Below are positions 8,497-44,952 of a DNA stretch of 45,055 nucleotides, piece after piece. The first letter of the stretch is position 1. Each line of letters begins with the position of its first letter. The notes under the pieces are model-generated. The model made no database searches. It saw nothing but the letters and a program-made list of their open reading frames with translations, and was not told where the DNA came from. The translations under genes were made by a program, and so were the position numbers. The stretch is taken from NCBI GenBank assembly GCA_003164335.1, contig PLTF01000045.1:5824-50878 (forward strand), given 5' to 3'. The stretch is from Fibrobacterota bacterium. Lineage in GTDB: Bacteria > Fibrobacterota > Chitinivibrionia > Chitinivibrionales > Chitinispirillaceae.

Positions 8497-9738
8497 CTAC
8501 TCCTCAAAAGCTTTTACGAGTGCACCCTGCCCGTTGAATGCCGACCGTGCAGCACCCAGGACCTCGACACGCTCACCCAGTTCCTGCAGAATTGATGACG
8601 AAACCTGGACCGTTTCCAGGCTCAGCGTATCGCGAATCCGCACCACCCGTTCGGCGCCGGCTTCGATTCTCCCGCAAGACTTGAGCGCCAGGCAAAACCC
8701 TTCGGCATCGGATTCGGCGATAAACGGCACCTTCACCCGCTCCAGAAAGAGACTTGCCCGCACATTGACATACATGGCTTCGAAATCGACCGAATCATAA
8801 AGCTTCCGGGTAATGACATCGGCAAGTCCCATGCCGATTGCATTTCCATACGAATGCGGGGAGAGTGCCGAAACCATGATCGCCTTTATGCGCGGGGAAA
8901 CCGGCTCCGGTTGCCCGCGAATCCCGAGGCGGCCGATGATGTTCGGATCCATGCCCACGCCGCTTATTTCCTTCCCCATCCGATCCAGGATCAGCACGTC
9001 GATGTCCTCTACCGGCAGCCGGGGCATGTTCCGGCGAGCCAAATCCAGAAGCTCGGGCTCCCGGTCCAGGATGCGCTCCGCAGGAATGGCCTCAATATGG
9101 GCAGGCCGATCGTAGGCATTTTCAACGACCGCCAGACCGAACAGGATTTTTCCGGATTGCAAGATTTGGTGGAACGATTGCGGAACCCGCTCAAGGAGAC
9201 CGGGAATCCCGAATGAGTGAATTTCCACTGCCGCGGCGTGTTTCCCAAGCCCGATAACCGCCATTTTTACAAGGCCGCTTTCATACCGGCCATGAAAATC
9301 CGTATGCGGTTTGATGCGATTTATAAGAATAACGCCATCGGATTCAAAGGCATTGCGATCCATAAATACCCGGTGGCCAAAATCTGAAACCGGTAATTCA
9401 ATGACTTCCATGGACGAGCGGATCGGTGCTCCCACGTTTTGTTCGGTTATCCCCGCCTCTGCGAGGATCCTGGACTGCCCTTCTGCGCTGCCGCTGCCGT
9501 GACTTCCCATCGCCGGCACGATGAACGGCCGGCAACCAGCCTCCCTCACCGCAGCAACAACCGACCTCACAATTTGATCCAACCCGGAAATACCGCGGCT
9601 CCCGGCGGCTATGGCGATCGCCGCCCCCGGGATCAGGCGGTTTTGCACCGCTGCCATTTCCCGCTTTACCGCCTCAGCTATATTTTCACTGCACGACCGG
9701 TTGAAGCGCTGCCGAATGGTATATAGTTCAAGATCCAT
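8497..9738 (-). CDS. LarA-like (DUF2088, lactate racemase-domain) protein
   Basis: This 413-aa protein has the LarA N-terminal (DUF2088) layout: an N-terminal Rossmann-like half with GSRGISGLDQIVRSVV and VPAMGSHGSGSAEGQ, a central RIKPHTDFHGRYESGLVKM segment with His/Lys residues at positions typical of the family's cofactor/substrate site, and a C-terminal half with VLILDRMGKEISGVGMDPN. LarA itself is a nickel-pincer lactate racemase; many homologues act on other 2-hydroxyacids or are uncharacterised. No larB, larC or larE is in the window, so racemase activity is not supported. The ATG at 9738 follows a GGAGG site 11 bases upstream. A longer frame runs into the divergent promoter region and is rejected. 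Confidence 0.8.
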   Translation of the reverse strand: MDLELYTIRQRFNRSCSENIAEAVKREMAAVQNRLIPGAAIAIAAGSRGISGLDQIVRSVVAAVREAGCRPFIVPAMGSHGSGSAEGQSRILAEAGITEQNVGAPIRSSMEVIELPVSDFGHRVFMDRNAFESDGVILINRIKPHTDFHGRYESGLVKMAVIGLGKHAAAVEIHSFGIPGLLERVPQSFHQILQSGKILFGLAVVENAYDRPAHIEAIPAERILDREPELLDLARRNMPRLPVEDIDVLILDRMGKEISGVGMDPNIIGRLGIRGQPEPVSPRIKAIMVSALSPHSYGNAIGMGLADVITRKLYDSVDFEAMYVNVRASLFLERVKVPFIAESDAEGFCLALKSCGRIEAGAERVVRIRDTLSLETVQVSSSILQELGERVEVLGAARSAFNGQGALVKAFEE

Positions 9739-9772
9739 TGCCAAAACGTCCTCCGGACCCGTTAAATCGTTC

Positions 9773-9801
9773 TTGCCGACAAAAATACATAGTGGTATTA
9801 T
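9773..9801 (+). promoter_or_regulatory. Sigma-70-like promoter for the receiver/kinase gene
   Basis: TTGCCG (9773-9778) and TATTAT (9796-9801) are separated by exactly 17 bases. They lie between divergent genes and about 40 bases before the chosen TTG start at 9842. The match is good but unproven. Confidence 0.4.
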
Positions 9802-9841
9802 TTGGCATATCTTGTCCGCTGTGTTCCTGAAGGGAGTCATT

Positions 9842-10948
9842 TTGCCTATTGCCTCGCCATCCGGCAGAAGCCGGGTGCTCATTATCGACGATGAGTATCT
9901 GATTGCCAAGGGCATTTCCGAGCTTCTCCAGTATCTCGGATTCAACGCGGAATTCGAACAGAATCCGCTTCGCGTTGAAAATTATCTGACGAAAAACCCC
10001 GATCTCGACATTATCCTGCTCGACATCAATCTCGGCCATGTGATGAACGGAATCGAGCTGCTATCCCTGATCAAGAAGAAGAACTCCTATGTACAGGTGA
10101 TCATGTTTACCTCCGAGGATAAGCTTGAGATCGGCCTCGAATGCATGCGCCGTGGTGCCTACGATTACATGACCAAGCCATTTGACGAGAAGATATTTAT
10201 TGCCAAGGCAACCGGCGCGGTCGAACGGAAAAAGAACCTGCAGCTCAACGATCTCTACCTCGGCATTCTTTTTCATGACCTGAAGAACCCTCTGCAGAGG
10301 ATCACCGGCGGCATAGAGCTGCTGCGCATGTCCCTGCCTCAGGATAGCCTGTCGGACCTGCAGAAAATCGGATTCAGCCAGGCGGAGCGGGCCTCCGATC
10401 AGATCGTTATGATGATTAATAATATTGTAAGCGTCTCAAAATTTGAAAACGGGGCGGTTGTCGCCCGGAATGAACCGTTTATTCTTCAGAAGATGGTCGA
10501 AGAAACGCTCGCTCTTTTTCTCGACCCGGTTTCCGCCGATGCGGATATTGCCGTCTCGATCGTTTATCGCTGCAGGAGCGATCTCACCATCACCGCCGAT
10601 AAGGATATGTTTGGAAGGGTGCTGGTCAATATTGTCAGCAATGCCTTGCGCTTTGCAGCGGATAACTCGACGGTTTCGGTGGAGTTTTCGGAAAAAGATG
10701 ACGGCTGCGTTGCCGTCAGCGTCTCGAATACCGGTTCTTTTATCGAAGAATCGGCGCGTGAAGCGATATTCAATAAGTTCTCCAGCGTACAAATTGCGGC
10801 CAGCCGGTCCGGATTTAAAAATTTCGGCCTGGGGCTTACCTTTGCAAAAATGGCGGTCGAAGCCATGAATGGCCGGATCTGGATCGCCTGCGATGAATCG
10901 GTCCCCTCAACGACCTTTCATTACACGGTCAAAAACTTTACATCCTGA
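9842..10948 (+). CDS. Receiver domain-histidine kinase fusion
   Basis: This 368-aa cytoplasmic signalling protein has an N-terminal receiver domain (about 10-125) with acidic residues Asp16/Asp17, phospho-acceptor Asp61 in LLDINLG and Lys112 in TKPF. A histidine kinase follows: H-box FHDLKNPL with His145, N-box NIVSNALRFA, a CusS-like NTGSFI G1 region and GLGLTFAKM. There is no membrane segment. The TTG start is chosen for its AGGGAG site 5 bases upstream; GTG 9821 is the in-frame alternative. Such receiver-kinase proteins relay phosphate from an upstream kinase. The large kinase at 17110 is a candidate partner, by position only. The next plus-strand gene starts 190 bases on. Confidence 0.85.
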   Translation: MPIASPSGRSRVLIIDDEYLIAKGISELLQYLGFNAEFEQNPLRVENYLTKNPDLDIILLDINLGHVMNGIELLSLIKKKNSYVQVIMFTSEDKLEIGLECMRRGAYDYMTKPFDEKIFIAKATGAVERKKNLQLNDLYLGILFHDLKNPLQRITGGIELLRMSLPQDSLSDLQKIGFSQAERASDQIVMMINNIVSVSKFENGAVVARNEPFILQKMVEETLALFLDPVSADADIAVSIVYRCRSDLTITADKDMFGRVLVNIVSNALRFAADNSTVSVEFSEKDDGCVAVSVSNTGSFIEESAREAIFNKFSSVQIAASRSGFKNFGLGLTFAKMAVEAMNGRIWIACDESVPSTTFHYTVKNFTS

Positions 10949-11138
10949 CGAACGCTCCTGCAGCGACCCCCCGGCGCCGGGCAAATCTTGCCGCCATGAT
11001 ATTTATGTTTGTTTTCCATGGTCAAATTAGTATATTGATCCTGTCGGCAATGGGACTCGCGGCGTTGCACCGATGCTGCCGCATAGGGGGAACCTGCCCC
11101 CGTTTTTTACGATCGAACCCCGGTAGTCCGGAGATGTC

Positions 11139-12164
11139 ATGGCTTTTGAAAAAGTTTCAACGGAAGTGGTCCTCGATGGATATTTTCGCAAGGAAAATGC
11201 CTGGAATATCATCAGCAATTATGAGCGATACCCGCAGATCATGGACAATGTCGACAAGGTAGAGGTCACCGGTCGCAACGGGGAAGACGGTACCTCGCAA
11301 TGGTTTATCTCAATAGAGGATGCCCCGCTCACCTGGGTTGAAAAGGATTATTTCAATCCGGCGAATTATGAAATTGTCTTCAAATCCATTGAAGGGGATT
11401 TCGACGCCATCAACGGCTGCTGGACTATCAGGGACAACATCGATTCCGGGATCAGTATCCGCTTCGAAATTCAGTATAACCTGGGGATTCCGGTTATTGA
11501 AGAGGTGCTCGGTCATATACTGTACGATAAAATGAAGAGCAACATGGATTCCATGATGGCCGCGGTAAAAAAGGAACTCTGCTCGACGGCCCGCAATGAA
11601 CGGGGGCACATCCGGCATGCAATAGGGAATCATCATGCATGCATGCTTAACGATTGGTCGCTGAATCTATGCATCCTTAATTTTTCCGCCGGGGGAATGA
11701 TGACGCATTTCGTTCCGGATATCCCGAAAAACGGCTCTCTCTCCCTTGCCGGCATCATGCTCGATGTTGCGGCAATCTATGCAAACGAATCGCAGAACCG
11801 TTGCCATTTCGTTTTTCGCAGTCCTGTCGAAGAGGAGCTCTTGAAAGTTCTGGTTTCCCGCCTCACCCTGGCGAGTGGAAGGCTGAAGTCGGCCGCCTCC
11901 GGGCCGCAGGAAGCCCTCGTCTTCGGTGATGCGCAGGAAGTTCCGATCCGGCTCCTGGACCTGACAAGGGACGGCCTGAGCTTTCTCGCGGAAGAAGCCG
12001 ATCTGCCGCCTATGGAAACGTTTACCGTCGGTAATACCGCTTTCCCGCTCAGGGAGGTCATTCGGGATGAAGGGCGCAATACCGTACGGATCCGCTTCTC
12101 GGACCATTTGAACGACGACCAGTTTCGCTGGATGCGCGAAAAAATCAGGATATCGCAGGAATAA
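11139..12164 (+). CDS. START (polyketide cyclase-like)-PilZ protein
   Basis: This is a 341-aa protein. Residues about 1-150 look like an SRPBCC/START (COQ10/polyketide cyclase-like) domain: the opening strand VSTEVVLDGYF, the helix WNIISNYERYPQIMDNVDKVEV and the later strand-helix end DKMKSNMDSMMAAVKKEL. Such domains bind lipids or hydrophobic intermediates, or cyclise polyketides. The C-terminal half looks like PilZ: RGHIR (155-159, RxxxR) and NFSAGG (181-186, the [DN]xSxxG motif), the two c-di-GMP contact motifs. A second, degenerate PilZ-like segment has LDLTRDGLSF but no RxxxR. The ATG at 11139 has GGAG 5 bases upstream. It precedes the AAR-ACP-ligase-ThDP operon by 192 bases in the same direction. 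The START call is by fold pattern; the first PilZ motif pair is clear. Confidence 0.7.
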   Translation: MAFEKVSTEVVLDGYFRKENAWNIISNYERYPQIMDNVDKVEVTGRNGEDGTSQWFISIEDAPLTWVEKDYFNPANYEIVFKSIEGDFDAINGCWTIRDNIDSGISIRFEIQYNLGIPVIEEVLGHILYDKMKSNMDSMMAAVKKELCSTARNERGHIRHAIGNHHACMLNDWSLNLCILNFSAGGMMTHFVPDIPKNGSLSLAGIMLDVAAIYANESQNRCHFVFRSPVEEELLKVLVSRLTLASGRLKSAASGPQEALVFGDAQEVPIRLLDLTRDGLSFLAEEADLPPMETFTVGNTAFPLREVIRDEGRNTVRIRFSDHLNDDQFRWMREKIRISQE

Positions 12165-12356
12165 GGTCAACGATGCGGGTCCCGGTCCGACATGCCGGGA
12201 AGACGGGACACGTGCCGCTGTCCCGCCGGTGCAACCGATAGCCATGATTGATTTTCAGCCTGCCGGGACTTACAAACAGGCAGCGGAGCAAGACGACCGG
12301 AACGCAGTTTACTAAACAGCAATGTGCGTCTTACCATTCCAGGCCCCCGCAATCAT

Positions 12357-13415
12357 ATGACCGACCGCAGACCCAAGTTTGCTCTCATCGGCCATCCGCT
12401 GGATATGCCGCTTTACCGGGCGTACATCAACTTTCTCAAACCGGGCAAATCCTTTCGTGACGAACTGATCCTGAAGCTGTTCGAGTGGACACCCTCTTAC
12501 AAGGCAAGTTCCTGGACCGATATTTCATTCGATGGGAAAAATGCCGTGGACGGCATACTGGTCATGGTTCCCTTTCTCCCGGAGATGCGGGACATCAGCC
12601 TCAAGACGGTCATCGAAAAAGTCGAGAAGGCCGTTGCCATTGCCGCCGACGAGGGATGTTCTGCCGCTGCACTCGGCGCCTTTACCTCCATCGTGCTTCA
12701 GGGAAAGGAGGAGGCGATAGCCCGCCGCTACGGCATCGCACTCACCTCCGGCAATACCACGACGGCGGCACTCATCGTCCGCTCCATCGAGGAGCTCATG
12801 GCGAGCCGCCATCGCAACCTTTCTGAGGCGGCAATTGCGGTTATCGGCGCATCGGGCGATATCGGCGGCGGTGTCTGCCTGTGGTTCGGCGATAAGGTCG
12901 GGAAAATGGTACTGAGCGCCCGGAACCGGGCGATTCTCGATCAGTTTGCCGCTGCGCACCGGAACGGGTTTTCCTGCGAACTGGAGATCACCACCGACAA
13001 CAATGCCGCAATCAAAAACGCCGACGTGGTGGTGTTCGTAACGAGCGCCTATCAACCGCTCTTCAGCCCGGAAGATTTCCTTCCCGGCACCATCGTGTGC
13101 GATGCGTCCGCACCGCTTAATGTCAAGATCGATGCCGGCCGCCGGTCCGATATCACCCTGTACCACGGCGGCATCGCAAAACTTCCCGCAGCGGTGGACC
13201 CGGGATTCGATATCGGCCTTGCCGCACCGGATCACCTTTACGGATGCATGACCGAAGGAATCCTGATGACCATGAACCCCGGTCTTCCGCCATCGCTTGG
13301 CAGAGGAAAGATTACGAAGGAAAAAATTCAATTATATTCAAAAGAGCTTGATCGTTACGATATCCCGCCGGCCTATTCGTGCGGGAAAGAAACACTTTTT
13401 CCGGGAGGTCTCTGA
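12357..13415 (+). CDS. Long-chain acyl-ACP reductase (AAR)-like enzyme
   Basis: This 352-aa protein resembles cyanobacterial acyl-ACP reductase, which reduces acyl-ACP to fatty aldehyde with NADPH. Shared segments occur in the same order: FALIGHP at the start, FLPEM near 74, ALGAFTSIV (106-114), SGNTTTAALIVR (131-142), the nucleotide-binding AVIGASGDIGGGVCLW (161-176), SARN (187-190) and YGCMTEG, whose Cys297 falls where the catalytic Cys of AAR is found. Length matches (about 340). The Rossmann part alone would also suit shikimate-dehydrogenase-like enzymes, but the flanking motifs are AAR-specific. The ATG at 12357 lacks a clear ribosome site; GTG 12324 is an alternative. The ACP gene follows after 4 bases, which fits an acyl-ACP substrate. 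No aldehyde-deformylating oxygenase is nearby. Confidence 0.8.
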   Translation: MTDRRPKFALIGHPLDMPLYRAYINFLKPGKSFRDELILKLFEWTPSYKASSWTDISFDGKNAVDGILVMVPFLPEMRDISLKTVIEKVEKAVAIAADEGCSAAALGAFTSIVLQGKEEAIARRYGIALTSGNTTTAALIVRSIEELMASRHRNLSEAAIAVIGASGDIGGGVCLWFGDKVGKMVLSARNRAILDQFAAAHRNGFSCELEITTDNNAAIKNADVVVFVTSAYQPLFSPEDFLPGTIVCDASAPLNVKIDAGRRSDITLYHGGIAKLPAAVDPGFDIGLAAPDHLYGCMTEGILMTMNPGLPPSLGRGKITKEKIQLYSKELDRYDIPPAYSCGKETLFPGGL

Positions 13416-13419
13416 TCCC

Positions 13420-13689
13420 ATGGCTGCATTGCCGGTGTACGAAAGGCTATCCGCGCTCCTCGACCGGGACTTCAATGTCGATCTCGCGGGAATCGATCCC
13501 GCACGGTCTATTTTCGAACAGGTTCCCATCGATTCGCTGGTTCTGGTCGGCATCGCTGCCGGGATTGAGCAGGAATTCGGCGTTGAACTTCCGCTGAGCT
13601 TCATGGAACAACCGACGATCGACAACCTGCTGAGGATGATTCCCGGAGACTCTTTTCCGGCCGGCCGGATCGCCGGCTTCACCGGTTGA
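13420..13689 (+). CDS. Dedicated acyl carrier protein
   Basis: This 89-aa carrier protein is acidic and helical. The 4'-phosphopantetheine attachment motif IDSL carries Ser39, followed by VLVGIAAGIEQEFGVELP, the usual helix II of ACPs, and PTIDNLLRMI at the end. It is distinct from the fatty-acid synthase AcpP consensus (GADSLD) and is not in a fab cluster, so it is probably a pathway-specific ACP. The ATG at 13420 has GGGAGG 11 bases upstream and lies 4 bases after the reductase stop. It would present the acyl chain to the reductase and receive it from the adjacent ligase or from the host's fatty acid synthase. Confidence 0.9.
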   Translation: MAALPVYERLSALLDRDFNVDLAGIDPARSIFEQVPIDSLVLVGIAAGIEQEFGVELPLSFMEQPTIDNLLRMIPGDSFPAGRIAGFTG

Positions 13690-13729
13690 GCAACCCGACT
13701 GCCCGTCAGGACGAATCGATCGATACCCT

Positions 13730-15091
13730 ATGCTTACCGACCATATCCGCTTCAACCGTATTGTTTTCCGCAATCGGGTTTTTACCGCCGGATATCTTGA
13801 CAATGCCGTCGATGCCGTCGCACGCTACCTCGACGATCATGCCCGGTCCAACTCCCCGATTGTTTACCTGCATGCTCCCAACCATATAAAAACCGTTATC
13901 GGTTTTCTGGGTATACTCAAGTCGGGCCGGACCTGTCTGCTCGTGGATCCGAAAACCGGAGCGCTTGAGTATGAGGAGATGCTCGCCGACACTCCGCCGG
14001 CGGCGATCATGCGCATCGACGAAGCGCCGATCGAGTTCGATTTCGCCGGGGAAATCGACCTTACCGACTACCGTATGGAACCGTCGCTGGTGTCGCAACT
14101 CGGCGACGTCTGCCTCATGCTCTATACGGCGGCTGAAGACGGGTATGCAAAGGCGGCAATGCTGACCCATGCCAATATTTTGTCGAACGCAAAGGCAATG
14201 TACGAAGATATCCGGGTCCGCGAAGACTCGACCACCTGTGCAATGCTCCCCTATCACCATCTGTTCGGAATCCAGAACGGTCTGATTTCGCCGGTCGTCG
14301 GCGGGGGATCGTTGGTCATAGCCGATATTTCCGATATTCAAAATCTCTCCACAATCGTCGATGACCTTCTCGTCCATAATGTTTCACATATTTACAGCGT
14401 CCCGCTCGTCTATTATTTGCTGAGCAAATCCTCCCGCATGCACGAAGTCTGCCGGCAGGCTTTCCAGCTCATCACCGGCGGGTATAAGCTGCCGGCGTCT
14501 CTTCGCGACAGGTTTGAAAGGAAATTTGCCGCACAACTGTATGAAGGGTACGGTCTTACCGAAGCCTCCCCTGTATGCACCTCGCAATCCCGCAGCAGAC
14601 CGTTCGCCGCCGACTCAATGGGTCCGGCCCTGCTCGATTACCAAGTCGGAATATTCGACGATGTCGGGAGGGAACTACCCTCAAATGAAAAGGGCGAAAT
14701 CTGCATTCGCGGCGGCAACGTCATGAAGGGGTATTTCAATCGTCCGGATGCAACCCAAAAGGTGCTGCGGGGCGGCTGGCTTCATTCGGGAGATTACGGC
14801 AAAAGAGACAATACGGGCAATATTTACTTTCTCGGCCTTATAAAAAAAATGTTCAATGTCGCCGGAAACAAGATCTACCCCGAAGAGGTGCGGCGGCTGA
14901 TGTTGCACCATGGGAACGTTTCCGGCGTGGAGCTCTGGAGCGATTATGACCCGTTGACCGGGGACCGGATGAAAGCAAAAATCAGATTGAAGAATAATTC
15001 GAACGGTGCCGGGGAAGAATTTTCACGGTGGTGTGCCGGAGCGATCGGGCCGCACAAGATTCCTCAAAACATTTCTTTCGAACAGGAATGA
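13730..15091 (+). CDS. Adenylate-forming (ANL) acyl ligase, degenerate, no A10 lysine
   Basis: This 453-aa member of the acyl-CoA/acyl-ACP synthetase superfamily keeps A5 (EGYGLTEAS, 272-280), A7 (HSGDYG, 352-357) and a recognisable A8 (about 369-390). Three key sites differ. A3, normally YTSGTTGxPKG, reads YTAAEDGYAKAAMLTH (132-147). A8, normally GRxKD, reads GLIKKM, losing the Arg and the hinge Asp. The protein stops at HKIPQNISFEQE, just before the LPKTxxGKxxR segment holding the adenylation lysine. No frameshifted remnant of that segment follows. It may load an acyl chain on the neighbouring ACP by an altered route, or be a catalytically reduced partner. It starts 40 bases after the ACP gene, with no clear ribosome site. 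The family is secure; the activity is open. Confidence 0.82.
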   Translation: MLTDHIRFNRIVFRNRVFTAGYLDNAVDAVARYLDDHARSNSPIVYLHAPNHIKTVIGFLGILKSGRTCLLVDPKTGALEYEEMLADTPPAAIMRIDEAPIEFDFAGEIDLTDYRMEPSLVSQLGDVCLMLYTAAEDGYAKAAMLTHANILSNAKAMYEDIRVREDSTTCAMLPYHHLFGIQNGLISPVVGGGSLVIADISDIQNLSTIVDDLLVHNVSHIYSVPLVYYLLSKSSRMHEVCRQAFQLITGGYKLPASLRDRFERKFAAQLYEGYGLTEASPVCTSQSRSRPFAADSMGPALLDYQVGIFDDVGRELPSNEKGEICIRGGNVMKGYFNRPDATQKVLRGGWLHSGDYGKRDNTGNIYFLGLIKKMFNVAGNKIYPEEVRRLMLHHGNVSGVELWSDYDPLTGDRMKAKIRLKNNSNGAGEEFSRWCAGAIGPHKIPQNISFEQE

Positions 15092-15095
15092 AATC

Positions 15096-16865
15096 ATGGA
15101 AATGAAAGTTGCCGACGTAATTGTCAAATGCCTGGAAGCGGAAGGCATTGAGTATGCATTCGGGATAACCGGGTCTCATTATCTCGCCTTCTTTAAAGCA
15201 TTGAAGCATTCATCGATAAAGTTTATTTCTGTTAAACATGAGAGCGCAGGTGCTTATATGGCGGGTCATTACGCAAAATTTGCGCAAAAACCTGCGCTGA
15301 TCATGGCCACCGCCGGCCCGGGAGCAATGAACCTCCTGGCCGGTATTGCAGAATTATACAAATCTAACCTTCCCTGCTTTATTCTGACGCCAATAGTTCC
15401 GATACAATTTCAAGGCAAAAATATGCTCCAGGAAGATAGCGGCCTGGGAAATTCCTATTCAATAGCCGATATTATGAAATGCATTACTAAGAAGACTATT
15501 ACCTGCCTCCATCCTGAAAATATTGCGGCTTATATTCAGGATCTTTTCAGGAACGGGTTAAACAAGGTAAATGGTCCGGTGCATTTACTTGTTCCAATTA
15601 ATTTCCTTGAAAAGAAGGTAGATTTTATGCCCCTGGCGGTTGAACAATATCGGAATATTAAGGATAGCTCCGCAGAGCATGATAAAATTATTTCTATTGC
15701 AAATAAATTATCCGCAAGCAAAAGACCGATCCTTTTTATCGGTCATCGAGCGGGGTACCCCAACATTTCTGCATCCATTAAAAAATTTAGTCGACTGTTC
15801 GGCATACCGGTGGTGCTATCAGCAAGTGCCAAAGGCCTTTTTGATGAATTTTCGCCCCTTTTTGCAGGCATATTGGATGTTTATGGGCACCGGTCGGCCG
15901 AATACTTTATTAAAAAGAGCGATATTATTCTATCCGTTGGCCAGGAGTTCAGTGAGTTTTCAACGGTTAAATATGACCCTGATTTATTTGGAGACAAACT
16001 GATTCAAATCGACATTGACGGGCTGGATATTGGAAGAAATTACCCGGTTCAATTGTCAGCTTGCGGCGACCTCGGCACGACTCTCGATTTATTAAGCGAT
16101 GAACTCGCGCACAGAATTCAAACACCATTTTTTGATGAGACCTTTCAAAGGGACTTTATTAAGGAAAATTCATTGCTCTGGGAAGATATGGCAGACAATC
16201 ACCTCCCTCTGCGACCGGCACGTATTTACAAGGAAATCTCCGAGCTGGCCAAAAACCGCGCTATCATCATCAGCGATATGGGCGCTAACAATTGTGCCTC
16301 CTACCGCCACCTACAAACAGGAGAATCCGGCTATTCCGCCTTATTTGGAAATTATACCATGGGCCAGGGTGTATCGGGCGCCATAGGAGCAAAAATTGCC
16401 TGCCCGGAGAAATTGGTCATTTCCATTTGCGGGGATGGTTCGTTTTTAATGAATGGAATGGAGATAGCAACTGCGCGGCAATATGATATTCCCATTATCT
16501 GGATGATATTTGTTGATAAATCGTATGGGATGGTAGAATGGTCCCAGAAGATCCTCTATAATGATCTTCAGTATTGCACAGAAATTTATGTACCTGACCT
16601 GGAAAAGCTGGCCGATTCTTTTTCAATAGGCTACTATAAGATTACGGACCTTGATTCTTTGCATACGAGCATTACTTCCTCATTCAAAAAATATGAAGAG
16701 GAGAAGAAAAGCTGCATAATTGAAATCGCTTTTGAAACCGAGGACATGTTGCCTTTCAAGCCTCGGATTGTCAAATTCATTCAGGATATGGGAAATACTG
16801 AAGAATCCGCCAAATCCCCTTTTCTCATGAAATCCTTTAAACGCATGCTTCGCGAAAAAGTCTGA
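15096..16865 (+). CDS. ThDP-dependent enzyme, acetolactate synthase-like
   Basis: This 589-aa protein has three-domain AHAS/pyruvate oxidase/benzaldehyde lyase architecture. The N-terminal PYR domain has the catalytic Glu49 in VKHESAGAYMAG and TAGPGAMNL; a central Rossmann domain follows (PILFIGHRAGYP). The C-terminal PP domain has GDGSFLMNG (from about 446), the ThDP-Mg motif. The usual second metal-site Asn is replaced by Asp474 in FVDKSYGMV. Family members decarboxylate 2-oxoacids or join aldehydes into 2-hydroxyketones. No regulatory AHAS subunit or other Ilv gene is present, so branched-chain synthesis is unlikely. The ATG at 15096 has AGGA 8 bases upstream and lies 4 bases after the ligase stop, so it is the last gene of that operon. 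It is visibly more AT-rich than its neighbours, suggesting separate origin. Confidence 0.85.
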   Translation: MEMKVADVIVKCLEAEGIEYAFGITGSHYLAFFKALKHSSIKFISVKHESAGAYMAGHYAKFAQKPALIMATAGPGAMNLLAGIAELYKSNLPCFILTPIVPIQFQGKNMLQEDSGLGNSYSIADIMKCITKKTITCLHPENIAAYIQDLFRNGLNKVNGPVHLLVPINFLEKKVDFMPLAVEQYRNIKDSSAEHDKIISIANKLSASKRPILFIGHRAGYPNISASIKKFSRLFGIPVVLSASAKGLFDEFSPLFAGILDVYGHRSAEYFIKKSDIILSVGQEFSEFSTVKYDPDLFGDKLIQIDIDGLDIGRNYPVQLSACGDLGTTLDLLSDELAHRIQTPFFDETFQRDFIKENSLLWEDMADNHLPLRPARIYKEISELAKNRAIIISDMGANNCASYRHLQTGESGYSALFGNYTMGQGVSGAIGAKIACPEKLVISICGDGSFLMNGMEIATARQYDIPIIWMIFVDKSYGMVEWSQKILYNDLQYCTEIYVPDLEKLADSFSIGYYKITDLDSLHTSITSSFKKYEEEKKSCIIEIAFETEDMLPFKPRIVKFIQDMGNTEESAKSPFLMKSFKRMLREKV

Positions 16866-16874
16866 CCTTGCCGC

Positions 16875-16900
16875 CGAATCGGTCGCTTGCGGCCGATTCG
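16875..16900 (+). terminator. Hairpin at the end of the AAR operon
   Basis: CGAATCGGTCG pairs with CGGCCGATTCG (one G-U) around CTTG, an 11-bp stem starting 9 bases after the ThDP-enzyme stop. It is followed by TATAATTTC, a weak T tract. It probably ends the operon. Confidence 0.5.
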
Positions 16901-17052
16901 TATAATTTCAATATATAGTATCTGCTTTTTTAATCCCCCCAACAGGTAGAGGTATGAATTTCTCAAAGCCCTCTATCGTCCCAACCGGCATTTTTTTCCC
17001 TTGCCGCCGTCCGGCATTAATGGGTACAATAACATAGTCTAACAATCTTATT

Positions 17053-17080
17053 TTGGGATAGTTACACCGGGTCATATAAA
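17053..17080 (+). promoter_or_regulatory. Promoter of the giant kinase gene
   Basis: TTGGGA (17053-17058) and TATAAA (17075-17080) are spaced 16 bases apart, about 30 bases before ATG 17110. The region from 16901 is AT-rich and otherwise empty. This suggests the large kinase has its own promoter, separate from the preceding operon. Confidence 0.42.
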
Positions 17081-17109
17081 GAAAAACTTAACATAAGCAG
17101 GAACGCTCA

Positions 17110-20100
17110 ATGACAACAAAAACCATGTCGGCCAGCTATGAATACCTCAATGCGCTCTCTTCCTCGGGCGACAGCGACGTCTCGGTCATCCGTCATCGGG
17201 AAAGCGGGGAGCAGTTCCTGCTTAAATGCCTCAGGGAGATGCCGGAGGCGAATACGGGCCTTCTGCGCCGTAAACTGCGGTTCAAGCATGAAATGGATAT
17301 CGTTTCCGCCCTGAATCACCGAAACATTGCAAAGCCGGTTTTTTCGCTGGGCGAGAACTCCGTCGATTCCATAGCCTATCCCTACCGTAAGGGAAAGACG
17401 CTTGCGGCGCTCCTTTCCGCATCGACCTTCATGCCGCTCGAAGCGCTGCATATCTGCCGGCAGCTTCTTGACGCGCTGGAATATATCCATTGCCGCGGCA
17501 TCGTTCATTGCAACATCAATACGGCAAACCTGTACATTGACGATGACAAGGGTCTTCAACTCCTCGAATTCGGGTTTTCCATGACGGAAGGCGAGGCGGC
17601 CCGGATACCGGAAGGCAGCGTAGTCGGCTCCTTTCCTTACCTGTCACCGGAACAGATGGGATTTACCGCCTTTAAAATCGATTCGCGAACCGATCTTTAT
17701 GGAGCCGCCCTGGTACTCTACCAGATGCTTTCCGGCAGCATGCCCTTTGAACTCACGGACAATACCGTAGAAGAGCTTCTCAATCAGGCGATACGCACCG
17801 AGGTTCAGCCCCTCCACCGGGTACCGCTCTCCATCAATGCAATCCTGCTCAAGGCGCTCAAGCCCACCCCCGCCGAACGGTATCAGACCGCCGCCGGGTT
17901 CAACCACGACCTCGCCGCTGCGATGGAGCACCTCAGGAGCGAATCCCATCACAACTTCGTTGCCGGAAGGCAGGATGCCATCATTGCCGTTAACCGCTCA
18001 CGGCTTTTCATCGCACGGAGCCGGGAAATAGACACCTGCAAGTACGCGCTCGAACAGTTTCTCCAGGGAAGCCCGGTCTCGATATGCATCCACGGAAAAT
18101 CCGGCATAGGGAAATCCGAAATCGTGCAGGAATTCCGGAGCATGGCTTCCCTGGACAAGGTCTTTTTCCTGTCGGTAAAATGTAACAGTTTTACGCCCCA
18201 GCAGCCCTATTCCATATTCCGGCACCTTGCACTTGATTTCATTTCAAACATAAATGCCGGCGGGAAAGAAACGATCGATGCTTTTTCCGTCACCGCCGAA
18301 AAACTCCTGATTGATTATTCAGGCGTCATCTGCCGCATGGTTCCGGAAATGAAGCCGTTCTTCCGCGAGGTACTGCCCATCGATATCGTTGAGTCCGAGA
18401 AAGAGGCCGACCGTACCGCGCATGTGCTGTTTACCCTTCTCGCAACCCTCTGCTCTTTCAAGCCGCTCATGTTTTTTATCGACGATCTCCAATGGATAGA
18501 CCGGGTTTCCTTCGAAATCATCCGGCGACTTTTGCGGGCGCAGACTCCCTGCATGATCCTGACTACGCTTCGGGCCGATCGGCTCGAAGGAGAACTCCAT
18601 GTATTTGAATTCGACCTGCGCAATATCGGGTTCAAGAAATTTCTCCCGATTATGGCTTTTAATCGTCTGGAAATCGGCGATCTTATCAGTTCACGGTTCG
18701 GCAAAGTGGATGAAATGGAACGGCTGGTGGATCTTCTGGCGACAAAAACCGATTGCTCGCCGTTCGCCCTTACCGAAGCATTCCGATTCCTGGTAAACCA
18801 CTTTATTGTACGCATGACCGAGAAGGGCTGGTCCCTCTCGGTAAGCGACCTTTCCCGATTACCGGATAAACTCGATCCGCTCTCACTGATTCTCCAGAAA
18901 CTCAGTGAGCTCGATCCCCGCGAACTTCAGTGGCTCGAAACCGCCTCGCTGGCCGAAGGCAATTTTCAAAAAAGCATTATCGAATCCGTGGGAGGATTTT
19001 CCGCGGTCGATTCGGATGCCATAGTCGACAAGCTCGACCGTGCCGGATTTTTTCGGACGCGGCTCGGGGCCGATTTCCGATTTTCGCATGATTACATTCA
19101 GGAATCGATACGCCGGCAAATACCCCAGGACAGGAAATTCCTTCTGTATGAAAAATTCGGGGAGACCTACGAAACCCTGGCGGCCCGGGATCGTGAATAT
19201 CTCTTTCATGCCGCTGAAGCGTATTTGAAAAGTAAAAACCTTTCCAGGTCCATATCGCTGAGCTACGAGGCTGCGCGTTATGCCGTTGAAAAGATTGCGC
19301 TCGATATTGCTTCGCGATATTTCACCAAAGCCCAGCTCATGATAGCACACTGTGAGGGGGTCGGTATTGCCGCTCCCATCGATGTTGCAAGGATGCATAT
19401 CGAATGCGGCGAAGTCCTGATGTTGACAGGAAGGAATGAACAGGCGCTGAAAATATTTCGCAGGCTCCTGGAAGAAGAAAAACTCGATAAGACAACCATT
19501 CTTAACCTCAAATTTAAAATCGGAACAATTCATCACAATACCGGTAACTTCGATGAATCAATCAGCTATTTCTTTGAAGGTCTTTCTCAATTGGGAATTC
19601 GATTTTATTCGAATAATTTTCTTATCATGGGAGTTTTGATACTAGAAATCATAAAACAAATAGGACTATCTCTGGGATTGAAATCATTCATAAAGAAAAG
19701 CGATAGCCCGGATAAGAAGCTGTCCGCAAAAATCCTGAACAGGCTTTCTTTCTCTTTATTTTATAAAAATATTCTGCTGGTGCAGTACGCTCATTTTAAG
19801 GCACTCAATATTGCCGATACGCTAAAAAGCTGTGCGGAACAAGCGGAAACATATGCCTATCACAATGTTTGCTCCTTCCTCCTGCTTATGAAGAAAAGGT
19901 CCCACAAATATTATTTAAAGGCGATTTCGATCGCCAAAAAAGCTAACCGCAGAGACGTTCTTGCATTCGCGCACTCCTTTGGAGGCGTAACATCCTATTA
20001 TAATGCCGAGTGGAAAAAAAGCGAAGGGGATTTGAATGAAAGCATCGACCAATACCGAAGCATTGGGGATCTGTGGGGTCAGATAGTTCCATTCGAAACA

Positions 20101-22233
20101 ATTGTGTGCGCAGAGTTAAAAAAAGGAAATTTTTTAAAAAGCGAATCCATGATTACTAATTTGCTGAATCTTGACGATGAATGCAATGATCACCGAGGCG
20201 TTGCTACTACACACATGTTTTTGACCTATATTAAGTTTTTAGGAGGTAAAGATGATCCTTCTGATTGGGCAACGGTCATTGAAGAAAGAGAAACAAATTT
20301 CTTCAGTATCCCGTTGAATAAAGCATTTTGCAATATTTTTATCACAAAAAAAATTCTTTTGAATGACCAAATTAAAGGTGCCTACGACCTTTCCGAATCA
20401 ATAATCGATAGTATTAAGCGGAATAATCTCATGCAGGAATATGTCGCAGAAGCATTCTCCGACCGCTGCGAAATCCTCATCAAAGAGTATTTTAACCGGC
20501 ATTTTTCTGGTGATTCCCGAACACAGCTCTACCATTCCGACCACGCCCTTCTCACCGAGTTGCGCAAATTTTGCCTTGCGGCGCTTGTGCGCGGCATCAT
20601 GTACCCCGCCCATCGCGGAGCGGCGTATCGGGCGATAGCCTGGTACAATGCTTTCAAAGGGCACAGGCGGACAGCCCGGCATTTCTTCCTGAAAGCAATA
20701 AACTGTCACCATGAACTGGACATGAAATTTGAGGAGGCAAAATCACTGGCCGGCTATGCAAGGTTTTTTGAAATTCATAACCAGCCGGGTCTCGGTCGCG
20801 ACTACTTCAATCGTGCCTATCAATTGTTCGAAAACTGCGGGGCCCTGGTGGAAAGCGACCGCATCAGGGACAACGTCGATCCCGGGCTGACGAAAAACCG
20901 CGAACGGATCGAACGAAGGGTCGATATCCCCATCGGAATCCCGGTAACTGCCGATCAGATCCGCATCGATACGCTCTACGAAGCCAGCCTGTCGCTGACC
21001 CAGGCGGAGGATGTGGATACGCTCCTGCAGCGGATCGTCGGGCTCCTTATCCGGGCGACGGGCGCCCAGTATGGACTCCTTCGTCTGGAGGGAAGTGCCG
21101 GCGAGCCGGAAATGAGTATTGCCCTGAACCATGACAATCGCGTCCTGCCGTGCGAAGGGATCGCGGTTTCGGAAAGCCTCCTGGCCCGGGCAAAATCCCT
21201 GAAAGCCATTGTGCTGTGGCCGGATCCCCGGGGAATCGACGATGGGGATGTCGCCGCTGATCCGGACAACGGCTCATCGATGTGCGTGCCGCTGGTACGC
21301 GGGGACAAATATCTCGGCTGCGTTTACCTTATCAACCGCCTCGTTGCCGGTCTTTTTTCCGACAATGCCGCCAAGGCCGCGAATATCATCTCGGTGCAGG
21401 CGGGTTTTCTGATCGAAAATGCCCGTCTCATGGAGGACTATAAGCGATTCAATGCGCGCCTGGAAGAGAAGGTCAAGGCACAGACGACCGATATCTCGGA
21501 AAAGGCGCGACAACTCGCATCGACGAACCTGAAACTTGTCGAGTCGGAACGCATGAAGGAGCTGCTCTCCGGCGCGGTCGTCCATGACATCAAGAATTTC
21601 GCCGCCGGCATATCCGGTCATATAAAACTGCTTGCTTATCGCCATGCGGAGGACCGGAAAACGGTTCGCAACATCGATCTGGCACAGGAATCGTGCATCG
21701 ACATCATCAATCTCGCTTCCAACCTTCTTGATATCAACAAAATGGAGGACGGGAAGCTTGCCCTCCAGCCCCGTGACCTCTTTTTTGAAGAGATAGCCGC
21801 AATCGCCCAGAAATTCAGCCGCAGCGTGCTTTTCGATGAAAAGCGCATTTCCGTGGCCATTACCGCTCCGGAAAACGATTTTGTCCTGAGGGCCGATCCC
21901 TACCTTGTCGAGCGCGTCATCCAGAATCTCTTTTCAAATGCGGCAAAATATTCCGAATCGGAGGGCAGCCTGAACCTGACCTTCCAAACCACGGAGAAAG
22001 AAAATATCCTTACCTTCTTCAGCTCCGGAAGCCCCATCCCCAGCGAACATCGGGAGGCTATCTTCGAGAAGTATTCGCGGGTCGACAACAAGGCTTCCCA
22101 TTTTTCCAAGGGACTGGGACTTTTTTTCTGCCGCATGGTCATGACGGCCCATCAGGGGAGAATCTGGCTGGAATCGGACGGGCGGGGCAACTATTTCAGG
22201 TTGGGGTTCAGGAAACAGGAACGGACCGCCTGA
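17110..22233 (+). CDS. Pseudokinase-AAA ATPase-TPR-GAF-histidine kinase (STHK type)
   Basis: This 1707-aa soluble multidomain signalling protein has, in order: a Ser/Thr kinase-like domain (about 10-275); a predicted ATPase with Walker A GKSGIGKS (329-336) and Walker B FFIDDLQWID (455-464); a long alpha-helical TPR-like region (about 690-1260); a GAF domain (about 1285-1440); a coiled coil; and a histidine kinase with His1492 in VVHDIKNF, N-box NLFSNAAKYSE and GLGLFFCRMV. The order is that of the trifunctional Ser/Thr kinase/ATP-binding/sensor histidine kinases. The kinase domain keeps Lys39 and SPE (179-181). However, HRD reads HCN (133-135) and DFG reads EFG (153-155), so phosphotransfer by this domain is doubtful. 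About 19480-20460 is AT-rich compared with the rest. ATG 17110 has AGGA upstream. Confidence 0.88.
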   Translation: MTTKTMSASYEYLNALSSSGDSDVSVIRHRESGEQFLLKCLREMPEANTGLLRRKLRFKHEMDIVSALNHRNIAKPVFSLGENSVDSIAYPYRKGKTLAALLSASTFMPLEALHICRQLLDALEYIHCRGIVHCNINTANLYIDDDKGLQLLEFGFSMTEGEAARIPEGSVVGSFPYLSPEQMGFTAFKIDSRTDLYGAALVLYQMLSGSMPFELTDNTVEELLNQAIRTEVQPLHRVPLSINAILLKALKPTPAERYQTAAGFNHDLAAAMEHLRSESHHNFVAGRQDAIIAVNRSRLFIARSREIDTCKYALEQFLQGSPVSICIHGKSGIGKSEIVQEFRSMASLDKVFFLSVKCNSFTPQQPYSIFRHLALDFISNINAGGKETIDAFSVTAEKLLIDYSGVICRMVPEMKPFFREVLPIDIVESEKEADRTAHVLFTLLATLCSFKPLMFFIDDLQWIDRVSFEIIRRLLRAQTPCMILTTLRADRLEGELHVFEFDLRNIGFKKFLPIMAFNRLEIGDLISSRFGKVDEMERLVDLLATKTDCSPFALTEAFRFLVNHFIVRMTEKGWSLSVSDLSRLPDKLDPLSLILQKLSELDPRELQWLETASLAEGNFQKSIIESVGGFSAVDSDAIVDKLDRAGFFRTRLGADFRFSHDYIQESIRRQIPQDRKFLLYEKFGETYETLAARDREYLFHAAEAYLKSKNLSRSISLSYEAARYAVEKIALDIASRYFTKAQLMIAHCEGVGIAAPIDVARMHIECGEVLMLTGRNEQALKIFRRLLEEEKLDKTTILNLKFKIGTIHHNTGNFDESISYFFEGLSQLGIRFYSNNFLIMGVLILEIIKQIGLSLGLKSFIKKSDSPDKKLSAKILNRLSFSLFYKNILLVQYAHFKALNIADTLKSCAEQAETYAYHNVCSFLLLMKKRSHKYYLKAISIAKKANRRDVLAFAHSFGGVTSYYNAEWKKSEGDLNESIDQYRSIGDLWGQIVPFETIVCAELKKGNFLKSESMITNLLNLDDECNDHRGVATTHMFLTYIKFLGGKDDPSDWATVIEERETNFFSIPLNKAFCNIFITKKILLNDQIKGAYDLSESIIDSIKRNNLMQEYVAEAFSDRCEILIKEYFNRHFSGDSRTQLYHSDHALLTELRKFCLAALVRGIMYPAHRGAAYRAIAWYNAFKGHRRTARHFFLKAINCHHELDMKFEEAKSLAGYARFFEIHNQPGLGRDYFNRAYQLFENCGALVESDRIRDNVDPGLTKNRERIERRVDIPIGIPVTADQIRIDTLYEASLSLTQAEDVDTLLQRIVGLLIRATGAQYGLLRLEGSAGEPEMSIALNHDNRVLPCEGIAVSESLLARAKSLKAIVLWPDPRGIDDGDVAADPDNGSSMCVPLVRGDKYLGCVYLINRLVAGLFSDNAAKAANIISVQAGFLIENARLMEDYKRFNARLEEKVKAQTTDISEKARQLASTNLKLVESERMKELLSGAVVHDIKNFAAGISGHIKLLAYRHAEDRKTVRNIDLAQESCIDIINLASNLLDINKMEDGKLALQPRDLFFEEIAAIAQKFSRSVLFDEKRISVAITAPENDFVLRADPYLVERVIQNLFSNAAKYSESEGSLNLTFQTTEKENILTFFSSGSPIPSEHREAIFEKYSRVDNKASHFSKGLGLFFCRMVMTAHQGRIWLESDGRGNYFRLGFRKQERTA

Positions 22234-30889: not shown

Positions 30890-31957
30890 TCATACCGGCT
30901 CCCCGCCATAGGTCGGCGACATCTCCCGTACCGACAAATCGAAAAATTCATGCAGTTTGGACTGTAAAAGCCGCTTGTCAGGCAGCCGGGTCGTGTAATC
31001 GGCAACCGCCGCAGGCGACAATGTGCGGTTCAAGGCGTACTCGACGACCTCGTCGTCTTTGCCTTTGCACAGAATGATACCGATGCTCGGGTTCTCATGC
31101 GTCTTTTTTACATCACGGTCGAGCGCTTCCAGGTAAAAGGATAGTTTGCCGAGATACTCGGGCTTGAACCCGTCGATCTTCAGTTCAAACGCAACCAGGC
31201 AGCGCAGTTCGCGGTGATAAAACAGCAGGTCGAGGAAAAAGTCCTTCATGCCGACCTGGATGCGATACTCTTCACCGATGAAGGCGAAGTCCCTGCCGAA
31301 TTCGGTAATAAAACCTTTGAGCGAGCGGACAATTGATTTTCGCAAGTCACTCTCCGAGTAACCATCGCGAAGGCCGAGAAAATCAAGCGAATAGAAATCG
31401 CGGAACATCTTTTCAGCCTCAGGATGAATTTCTCTCAACACTGTTGAGAGTTTTAACCGGGGAGAAACGGAACGCTCGAAAAGACCGCTGTCCAGCGCGT
31501 GCTCAAGTTCACGGACGGAATATCGCTCGCGTATAGCGGTCAGTAAATAAAATTCGCGTTCTTCCGGGGTTCGTGTTTTGGCCATAATATGCAAATGAGA
31601 TGACCATGCTATTTCTCTCAACACTGTTGAGAGTTTTTCGTAACCTGCATATAAATCAAAGAATTGCTTCATTCGCCATAGATTCTTATCGGAAAATCCG
31701 CGCACATCCGGAAATGTATTCTGAAGATGGTCGGCAAGTTTTTTTACCACTCCGGAACCCCATTCCGCCTTTTGCACCTTTTTGCTGATATACTCACCGA
31801 CACGCCAATAGGTAGTAATCATTTCGGCATTCACCGATGCAGTCGCCTTGCGCCTGCCGATTTGAATAAGCTTCGCAACTTCAGCGAATTGCGATTCGAG
31901 CGGCAAAGGTTTTTTCTTGCGGCTTAAGGATGTCTTTTTTTTCACCAATTTATTCAT
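30890..31957 (-). CDS. YhcG-type PDDEXK nuclease-domain protein (DUF1016)
   Basis: This 355-aa protein has an N-terminal helical DUF1016 region (ITTYWRVGEYISKKVQ, GFSDKNLWRMKQFFDLY, REFYLLTAIRERYSVRELEHALDSGLFERS) and a C-terminal PDDEXK-like nuclease fold with GMKDFFLDLLFYHRELRCLVAFELK, where Asp and ExK are the expected metal ligands. Family members occur in defence islands and next to restriction genes, but a specific role is not established. The gene contains two identical 27-bp DNA repeats, each encoding the KLSTVLREI stretch (31428-31454 and 31611-31637). It stands next to hicBA with a 129-base gap and may be part of a small accessory island. Confidence 0.88.
   Translation of the reverse strand: MNKLVKKKTSLSRKKKPLPLESQFAEVAKLIQIGRRKATASVNAEMITTYWRVGEYISKKVQKAEWGSGVVKKLADHLQNTFPDVRGFSDKNLWRMKQFFDLYAGYEKLSTVLREIAWSSHLHIMAKTRTPEEREFYLLTAIRERYSVRELEHALDSGLFERSVSPRLKLSTVLREIHPEAEKMFRDFYSLDFLGLRDGYSESDLRKSIVRSLKGFITEFGRDFAFIGEEYRIQVGMKDFFLDLLFYHRELRCLVAFELKIDGFKPEYLGKLSFYLEALDRDVKKTHENPSIGIILCKGKDDEVVEYALNRTLSPAAVADYTTRLPDKRLLQSKLHEFFDLSVREMSPTYGGEPV
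31428..31454. repeat. 27-bp palindromic repeat inside the nuclease gene, copy 1
   Basis: This is identical to 31611-31637. Its core CTCTCAACACTGTTGAGAG is a perfect 19-base palindrome centred on one C. In the gene's frame it encodes part of LKLSTVLREI before HPEAE. Confidence 0.9.
31611..31637. repeat. 27-bp palindromic repeat inside the nuclease gene, copy 2
   Basis: This is identical to 31428-31454, in the same orientation and the same codon phase. It encodes part of EKLSTVLREI before AWSSHL. Flanking bases differ, so the shared unit is this element and not a longer duplication. Confidence 0.9.
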
Positions 31958-43612: not shown

Positions 43613-44614
43613 TTAAACCGCCGCGCCGGTGCAGGACGAGCCCTGACCCGCGGTACAGGCATAACAATGGTCGCCGGTCACGATCTCCCTGCCCTGCAGC
43701 TTCGCCTCGTCAAAAAGTTCGATGCGGTCCGGCGCCCCGTGGTTTACCGGGAGGCGCAACCACTGGTTGAAATCGCAGTCGTAAAGTCTGCCGTCCCACC
43801 CCACCGACAGCGTGGTCCGGCACATCGCCCCCCGTGCTGCCGCAGGGTTGAACGCCAGCTCCAGGTTTTTCAGGTACTCATCGTAGTTATCGCTTGCCGT
43901 AAGGTAGTCGCGAAACCGGCCGGTCGGACAGTTCGTGAGGCAGTAAAGCCGGTTGAACCGGACCGCGTGATCGGCCATCAGCCGTTCCCGGTACCCGCGT
44001 TCGAGCGCCTTCTGCGGTCCGGGCAGGTAGGCACCGACCGGGTTATGCGCAATATCAATGACGAGGCCCGAGCCCGGCTCGCCCCAGCCCCTCCGGTTGA
44101 GCAGGCGGAGGCCTGCGATGATTTTATCGAAACTCCCCTCCCCCCGCTGCCGATCGCACTGCTCCTTTTTCCAGTGGGGCAGCGACACGACAAGCTCCAC
44201 CCTGTTGCGGCTGAAGACATCCATCAGGTGCCCGTACTCCTTTTCGAGAAGAATCACCAGGTTCGAACGGACCATGAGCCGTTTGCCGAGGAGCGCTGCC
44301 CGGTCAAGAAACCATTCGAGGTGTTCGTTCATCTCCGGCGCCCCGCCGGTAATATCGATGGTGGTGATGGACCCTGTCCCGGCGATGGCCAGGCAGCGGT
44401 CAAGCAGCGTGCGCGACATTGACTCGCGGAGCTTTGGACCGGCCCCGGTATGGCAGTGCCGGCAGCTCAGGTTGCAGCGCCTTCCCACATTGATCTGCAG
44501 CGTCTCGACACTCCCGCTCCGGAAGGGCACCATTCCCGATGCTAAAAGCTTTTCCCCGAAGGGTTTGACCGTACGGAGCTCCCCGGGTAACGGTGGGTTT
44601 TTGCCTGCTATCAA
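43613..44614 (-). CDS. arsS: ArsS-like radical SAM protein (DUF3641 C-terminus)
   Basis: This 333-aa protein has a radical SAM core with the cluster motif CNLSCRHC (Cys47, Cys51, Cys54) preceded by TLQINVG and followed by DITGGAPEMN. The DUF3641-type C-terminal part has CRTTLSVGWDGRLYDCDFNQW and ends HCYACTAGQGSSCTGAAV. This is the arsenosugar-biosynthesis radical SAM (seleno)protein family, which joins 5'-deoxyadenosyl to a methylated arsenical. Many members are selenoproteins; here the C-terminal motif is all Cys and no in-frame TGA was needed. The TTG start at 44614 overlaps the upstream gene's stop (TTGA). A longer reading frame into that gene is not supported. No arsM-like gene is in the window. 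Confidence 0.83.
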   Translation of the reverse strand: MIAGKNPPLPGELRTVKPFGEKLLASGMVPFRSGSVETLQINVGRRCNLSCRHCHTGAGPKLRESMSRTLLDRCLAIAGTGSITTIDITGGAPEMNEHLEWFLDRAALLGKRLMVRSNLVILLEKEYGHLMDVFSRNRVELVVSLPHWKKEQCDRQRGEGSFDKIIAGLRLLNRRGWGEPGSGLVIDIAHNPVGAYLPGPQKALERGYRERLMADHAVRFNRLYCLTNCPTGRFRDYLTASDNYDEYLKNLELAFNPAAARGAMCRTTLSVGWDGRLYDCDFNQWLRLPVNHGAPDRIELFDEAKLQGREIVTGDHCYACTAGQGSSCTGAAV

Positions 44615-44952
44615 GGCTGCATCTCGACTTTGCGGATTATCTTTCGCATCTGTGTGGAATGTGCCAGCACGGCCCCGGCAACGATCGAAGCCCCCACATG
44701 GACCGCCTCCATCATCTCGTCGCTCGTGATGCCGAGTGAGAGGCACCTGGTGGTATAGGCGTCGATGCAGTAGGGACAATGTTCCGTATGGGCTACCGTC
44801 AGCGCGATCAGGGATTTTTCGCGCTCGGAAAGGGTGCCGCCGGCGGTTGCGCTTCCGTAATAATCGAAGAATGCCTTGCCCTGATCCTGGGCGAACTCCC
44901 CGATATGAGGGAAATCCTTGAGGTCGTCGGAATTATAATAGTTGTGTGCCAT
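44611..44952 (-). CDS. Arsenosugar-associated peroxidase-like CMD protein
   Basis: This 113-aa carboxymuconolactone-decarboxylase/AhpD-fold protein has the redox pair CPYC in EHCPYCIDAYTTRCLSLG and the helix-rich rest of the fold (EMMEAVHVGASIVAGAVLAHS). This small form is regularly found next to ArsS-family genes and is presumed to be a peroxidase or thiol oxidoreductase supporting that pathway. ATG 44952 has AGAAAGGA upstream. The stop overlaps the arsS start, so translation is linked. It is the first gene of the minus-strand cluster seen here. Confidence 0.85.
   Translation of the reverse strand: MAHNYYNSDDLKDFPHIGEFAQDQGKAFFDYYGSATAGGTLSEREKSLIALTVAHTEHCPYCIDAYTTRCLSLGITSDEMMEAVHVGASIVAGAVLAHSTQMRKIIRKVEMQP

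Follow-up and report, generated by a model that had tools for sequence, protein, structure and literature searches.

A conserved locus of Fibrobacterota and Myxococcota that joins an AAR-like reductase, an ACP, an atypical ANL protein and a ThDP enzyme to kinase genes

Organization of the locus

The window analysed here is a 45,055-nucleotide stretch of contig PLTF01000045.1 of an uncultured Fibrobacterota bacterium (assembly GCA_003164335.1; 3.8 Mb in 164 contigs, 98% complete with 5.5% contamination). Four genes on one strand encode an AAR-like reductase, an ACP, an ANL-superfamily protein and an acetolactate-synthase-like ThDP enzyme, separated by 4, 40 and 4 bases respectively, as in the preliminary description of this DNA (Table 1). 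That description took these four genes as the unit; all are present, but the conserved unit is wider, running from ~9611 to 22233, and also includes genes for two kinases (designated RRHK and KIN) and for a START-PilZ protein, to which most relatives add a B12-radical SAM protein. In RRHK the receiver domain begins near 9869 and the position of the start codon is uncertain. The reductase could alternatively begin at an in-frame GTG at 12324, 11 codons earlier, although the ATG adopted in Table 1 agrees with the start of the homologue at locus L002. Elsewhere the window encodes a FIST-domain protein (215-1324), a DUF1016 protein with a YhcG-type PDDEXK nuclease (30890-31957) and a radical SAM protein with DUF3641 (43613-44779).

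Table 1. Genes of the conserved unit, in window coordinates
Feature	Coordinates	Strand	Supporting matches
Response regulator receiver + HisKA + HATPase protein (RRHK)	9611..10948	+	Response_reg 7e-22, HATPase_c 1e-17 (Pfam)
START/SRPBCC (Polyketide_cyc) protein with C-terminal PilZ-type region (START-PilZ)	11139..12164	+	PF03364 E=1.9e-15
AAR-like thioester reductase, Cys297, GASGDIGG (AAR)	12357..13415	+	TIGR04058 2e-27 (below cutoff), 6jzq 1.5e-23
ACP, DSL serine	13420..13689	+	PP-binding E=3.5e-10
ANL-superfamily protein without A10 lysine, altered P-loop YTAAEDGYAKAAM	13730..15091	+	AMP-binding 7e-52
ThDP enzyme, acetolactate-synthase-like, without acceptor arginine	15096..16865	+	three TPP_enzyme domains (N/M/C) 1e-27 to 2e-29
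Giant Ser/Thr kinase - AAA - TPR - GAF - histidine kinase (KIN)	17110..22233	+	Pfam

An AAR-like reductase and its carrier protein

The AVIGASGDIGG motif and Cys297, on which the assignment of the reductase as an AAR homologue was first based, are both present, and the assignment is borne out by sequence and by fold. The best PDB match is a solved AAR (6jzq); PigE is matched at 2.5e-20 and Pfam Shikimate_DH at only 6e-5. A structure model (pLDDT 84.7), for which five relatives were used along with the window protein, has the AAR fold; its Foldseek match to 6jzq reaches a TM of 0.78 (E 1e-19 to 1e-21), whereas shikimate dehydrogenases reach a TM of only about 0.3-0.4 on the query, so that a shikimate dehydrogenase identity is ruled out on both counts. 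Cys297 aligns with the cysteine of the FACFAEA motif of S. elongatus AAR, C294, which is the catalytic cysteine of that enzyme (PMC7089970), and both Cys297 and the glycines of the nucleotide loop (GxxGxxG) are invariant in the 12 homologues aligned. Since the fold and the cysteine are kept, yet the score against the long-chain acyl-ACP reductase model TIGR04058 is 96.4 bits where the equivalog cutoff is 449.7, the reductase is, as judged from alignment and model, AAR-like rather than an AAR equivalog.

The cyanobacterial AAR-ADO system thus shares with the window the AAR fold, the catalytic cysteine and GxxGxxG (PMC7089970), but differs in that its reductase belongs to the family whose cutoff the window protein falls far below, and in its ADO partner. 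The partner had been noted as missing from the neighbourhood; no match to ADO (PF11266) was found in the whole window genome by a search whose control recovers ADO in S. elongatus, and the AAR-ADO alkane pathway is thereby ruled out. Other AAR-like genes show some variety of arrangement: G035 and G036 have tandem copies with the ACP gene between them (L025 428-2849; L005 2749-4770), a second copy with an in-frame TAG adjoins the START-PilZ and RRHK genes in G037 (C110:2414-3196), and at three Myxococcota loci (L032-L034) AAR-like domains lie within long open frames of 659-765 residues that are possibly PigE/TamH-like fusions.

The ACP carries the serine ascribed to it, within a DSL motif, and homologues occur in 7 loci. 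Its ANL neighbour was first described as a ligase; membership of the ANL superfamily stands, but to call the protein a working ligase is unsafe. All seven members of the ANL alignment stop before the A10 lysine, the P-loop is altered (YTAAEDGYAKAAM in the window against the canonical TSGTTGxPKG), and the A8 motif also departs from canonical; because of the missing lysine and the altered P-loop, ordinary adenylation by this family appears doubtful. PtmA1 and PtmA2 are ANL proteins that appear to divide the adenylation and transfer half-reactions between them (PMC6594144), and the window protein may load the ACP from an already activated acyl group, or may be inactive. An apparent ACP-ANL fusion at L006 (590-aa ORF) is not real, the ACP match being in another frame.

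A ThDP enzyme clade that has lost the AHAS arginine

The acetolactate-synthase-like character of the ThDP enzyme is confirmed by its domains and by its HE and GDG motifs, and a separate ordinary AHAS is present in the window genome. With the family profile the best PDB match is BbmA (8x3x, 8e-135), and the closest solved relatives are BbmA, CsmA and the acetolactate synthases, all three-domain ThDP enzymes with the same two motifs. Five genomes score 809-1019 bits with the cluster profile (the window genome G000, G002, G031, G168 and G307), and each of them has AAR; elsewhere in the 18 genomes searched no score exceeds 386 bits. These five enzymes form one clade with 100/100 support, and their genes adjoin AAR cluster genes or the kinase.

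Features of the active site set this clade apart. The ThDP-activating Glu (HE) and the GDG motif are kept throughout. Unlike AHAS, in which Asn is the metal ligand, four of the five members have Asp or Glu at that position, the G002 copy retaining Asn. The Arg of the GxRFDDR motif is replaced by Glu, Asp, Asn or Ser in all five members, where seven ordinary homologues in the same alignment have Arg; BbmA and CsmA have Ser there. This arginine (R276 of E. coli AHAS II) we take to be the residue that recognises the 2-oxoacid acceptor. Its loss would suit an aldehyde acceptor and so makes the joining of an aldehyde to a 2-oxoacid-derived unit more plausible. Relative to the ordinary homologues, the loop that follows QE is also extended in the clade, and the C-terminus bears a tail peculiar to it.

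The window ThDP gene has a GC content of 42.6% and a GC3 of 0.45, as against GC3 values of 0.60-0.68 for its operon neighbours, and the G002 copy is likewise low (0.49). On the basis of this atypical composition the gene may be a later addition to the operon. A plasmid search did not find a close ThDP relative, and its AAR matches were at 27-29% identity only, two of them within genes annotated as aminotransferases.

Conservation of the neighbourhood

Gene content was compared by tblastn and ORF listing among fragmented metagenome genomes, in which contig edges end several of the loci; relatives possibly also occur outside the phyla sampled. Relatives of the reductase are found in 8 of the 168 genomes of the phylum and in one Polyangiaceae genome, with a more distant one in another Myxococcota genome. 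A further relative is on a contig labelled Latescibacterota that is possibly mis-binned, since it is short (4.9 kb) and carries a radical SAM gene with 84% identity to that of G021. Throughout these loci there are repeated combinations of RRHK, START-PilZ, AAR, ACP, ANL, ThDP and/or B12-radical SAM, and KIN (Table 2).

Table 2. Gene content of representative loci
Locus	Genes
Window	RRHK, START-PilZ, AAR, ACP, ANL, ThDP, KIN
G002, two contigs	RRHK, START-PilZ, AAR, ACP, ANL; second contig: partial radical SAM, ThDP, KIN
G031	full set, with radical SAM between ANL and ThDP on the other strand
G030	RRHK, ACP, ANL, START-PilZ, AAR, radical SAM, KIN; ThDP absent
G021	AAR, epimerase, ANL, radical SAM, KIN; no ACP match, ThDP absent
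G168	AAR, ACP, ANL, radical SAM; opposite strand: START, ThDP, a kinase
G307 (L041, distant Myxococcota)	AAR, ThDP and a distant kinase only; contig ends there

The conservation of the four genes together, on which the preliminary description depended, is found in that AAR and ThDP genes share a contig in G031, G168 and G307, while G002 has both but on two contigs that are broken; three of these four genomes also retain ACP-ANL. Because it recurs in other genomes, the gene arrangement is not due to chance. The radical SAM protein of these clusters (HpnJ/BchE-like at L006) is lacking in the window, unlike in G002, a member of the sister genus, and its gene was not found in the window genome, where only paralogues at ~39% identity or less occur. 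A highly reducing type I PKS gene lies between AAR and the kinase in G037 (L027 7263-13544, adjoining AAR) and another near the kinase in G035 (L059 8094-14444), an association that, from the gene content, fits an acyl-chain product.

The regulatory genes are also conserved. The START-PilZ gene is immediately preceded by an RRHK orthologue in G002, G031, G035, G036 and G037 (47-65% identity), and one of 43% identity belongs to the G030 cluster. The START-PilZ gene is conserved beside AAR in relatives; the PilZ model is above cutoff in family members at L005 (8.6e-8) and L024 (1.4e-5), and a search of the window START protein with it did not find the domain. KIN, a Ser/Thr-His kinase of ~1700 residues, has orthologues that adjoin cluster genes in G002, G031, G030 and G021, that lie downstream of AAR past the PKS gene in G037, and that are on a separate contig in G035. 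However, KIN is also present in five relatives that lack AAR, and in G021 the cluster is situated between KIN and a phosphoesterase gene, two genes that are adjacent in G022 (same genus) and in G019. KIN thus has a life of its own; it is ruled out as a cluster-specific marker, is not specific to the pathway, and provides a link to signalling that is suggestive only.

Relation to known systems and a proposed pathway

A described AAR-ThDP-acyloin cluster was not found in the open-access papers searched, and to that extent the original statement that no pathway with this gene set is described holds; two systems are nevertheless partial precedents. Prodigiosin MAP biosynthesis similarly pairs a pyruvate-using ThDP enzyme, PigD, with a thioester reductase of AAR-like type, PigE, and the acyl unit on which they act is of medium chain length (PMC8341465), but PigE is fused to a PLP aminotransferase, whereas the window reductase is stand-alone, has no aminotransferase in its operon, and is found beside its own ACP, ANL and kinases, with a radical SAM gene in relatives. 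In tambjamine synthesis the TamA/TamH cascade supplies an AAR-like reductase from ACP and ANL domains, and the fatty aldehyde formed in vitro is of C12 length (PMC9594044). However, both proteins of this cascade are fusions, acids are activated by the ANL domain of TamA whereas the window ANL has no A10, the aldehyde is transaminated, and the cascade lacks a ThDP enzyme. In its gene content the window combines the logic of both systems, without the aminotransferase.

From the gene identities, the conserved linkage, the conservation of the AAR and ThDP active sites and the loss of the AHAS arginine, all of which the computation supports, we infer the substrate, donor, product and signalling role of a pathway that we favour tentatively and with rather less than even confidence: a regulated locus that makes a small lipid with an acyl chain. 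The dedicated ACP would carry this chain, which the atypical ANL protein helps to load or which is drawn from fatty-acid synthesis, and the AAR-like enzyme, forming a thioester at Cys297, would reduce it to a fatty aldehyde. The ThDP enzyme would decarboxylate a 2-oxoacid, most simply pyruvate, and add the C2 unit to this aldehyde, yielding a long-chain acyloin (alpha-hydroxyketone), perhaps a signal. In favour of this last step, PigD given 2-octenal puts its acetyl unit straight onto the aldehyde carbon (PMC8341465). The START-PilZ protein and the two kinases would control production or respond to the product. The acyloin need not be the final product everywhere, since the AAR clusters of G030 and G021 have radical SAM genes instead of ThDP.

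The signalling role is favoured but is the weakest step. The product may be a signalling lipid because related clusters keep the same genes beside large sensor kinases, and no exporter or dedicated receptor was identified for the proposed pathway. Alternatively the locus may make a lipid for membranes, storage or protection, such as one with a modified alkyl chain, under kinase control and with no diffusible signal. The PKS, radical SAM and epimerase genes of relatives do resemble those for building and tailoring lipids, and the START domain is suited to lipid handling; on the other hand the repeated linkage of two kinase genes implies control beyond that usual for a bulk lipid, and the sparse distribution within the phylum also speaks against it, so that we consider this possible although unlikely.

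Somewhat less probable still is a prodigiosin-like order of reactions, in which the ThDP enzyme adds its C2 unit to an enoyl-ACP by Stetter 1,4-addition, after which the 3-acyl-acyl-ACP is converted by the AAR into a 4-oxoaldehyde for further processing. Its precedent is the thioester intermediate reduced by PigE, whose N-terminal part is AAR-like (PMC8341465). The AAR homologue of L041 is in fact slightly nearer PigE (153.8 bits) than TIGR04058 (143.5 bits). However, among the genes of the window operon no aminotransferase or other enzyme that would use a 4-oxoaldehyde was seen, and among solved structures the nearest relatives of the ThDP enzyme are BbmA, CsmA and acetolactate synthases. Least probable, and very unlikely, is that the AAR yields a free aldehyde or alcohol and that the ThDP enzyme lies beside it by chance and serves some other purpose in 2-oxoacid metabolism, as its deviant base composition and its absence from several AAR clusters might suggest, for among the 18 genomes searched the well-supported ThDP clade turned up solely where AAR is present, in five genomes that represent two phyla.

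Should the acyloin pathway be correct, its product would belong to the same chemical class as the alpha-hydroxyketone signals of Vibrio and Legionella, which also have linked histidine kinases, but those are made by the PLP enzymes CqsA and LqsA (PMC3376566) and not by an AAR with a ThDP enzyme, and the cluster genes encode no PLP enzyme (Pfam). It is conceivable, although improbable, that Fibrobacterota and Myxococcota have in common a lipid signalling type of its own, with long-chain alpha-hydroxyketones made by an AAR-like reductase and a ThDP carboligase and with the linked Ser/Thr-His kinases as receivers. Whichever reading holds, the ThDP clade without the AHAS arginine and the ANL family without A10 both merit characterization. 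If the favoured acyloin pathway is true, acyl-ACP reduction would be coupled to ThDP carboligation for the synthesis of lipid acyloins, and the locus would offer, in phyla that have received little study, a candidate open to testing for another enzymatic route to alpha-hydroxyketones, the second of its kind.
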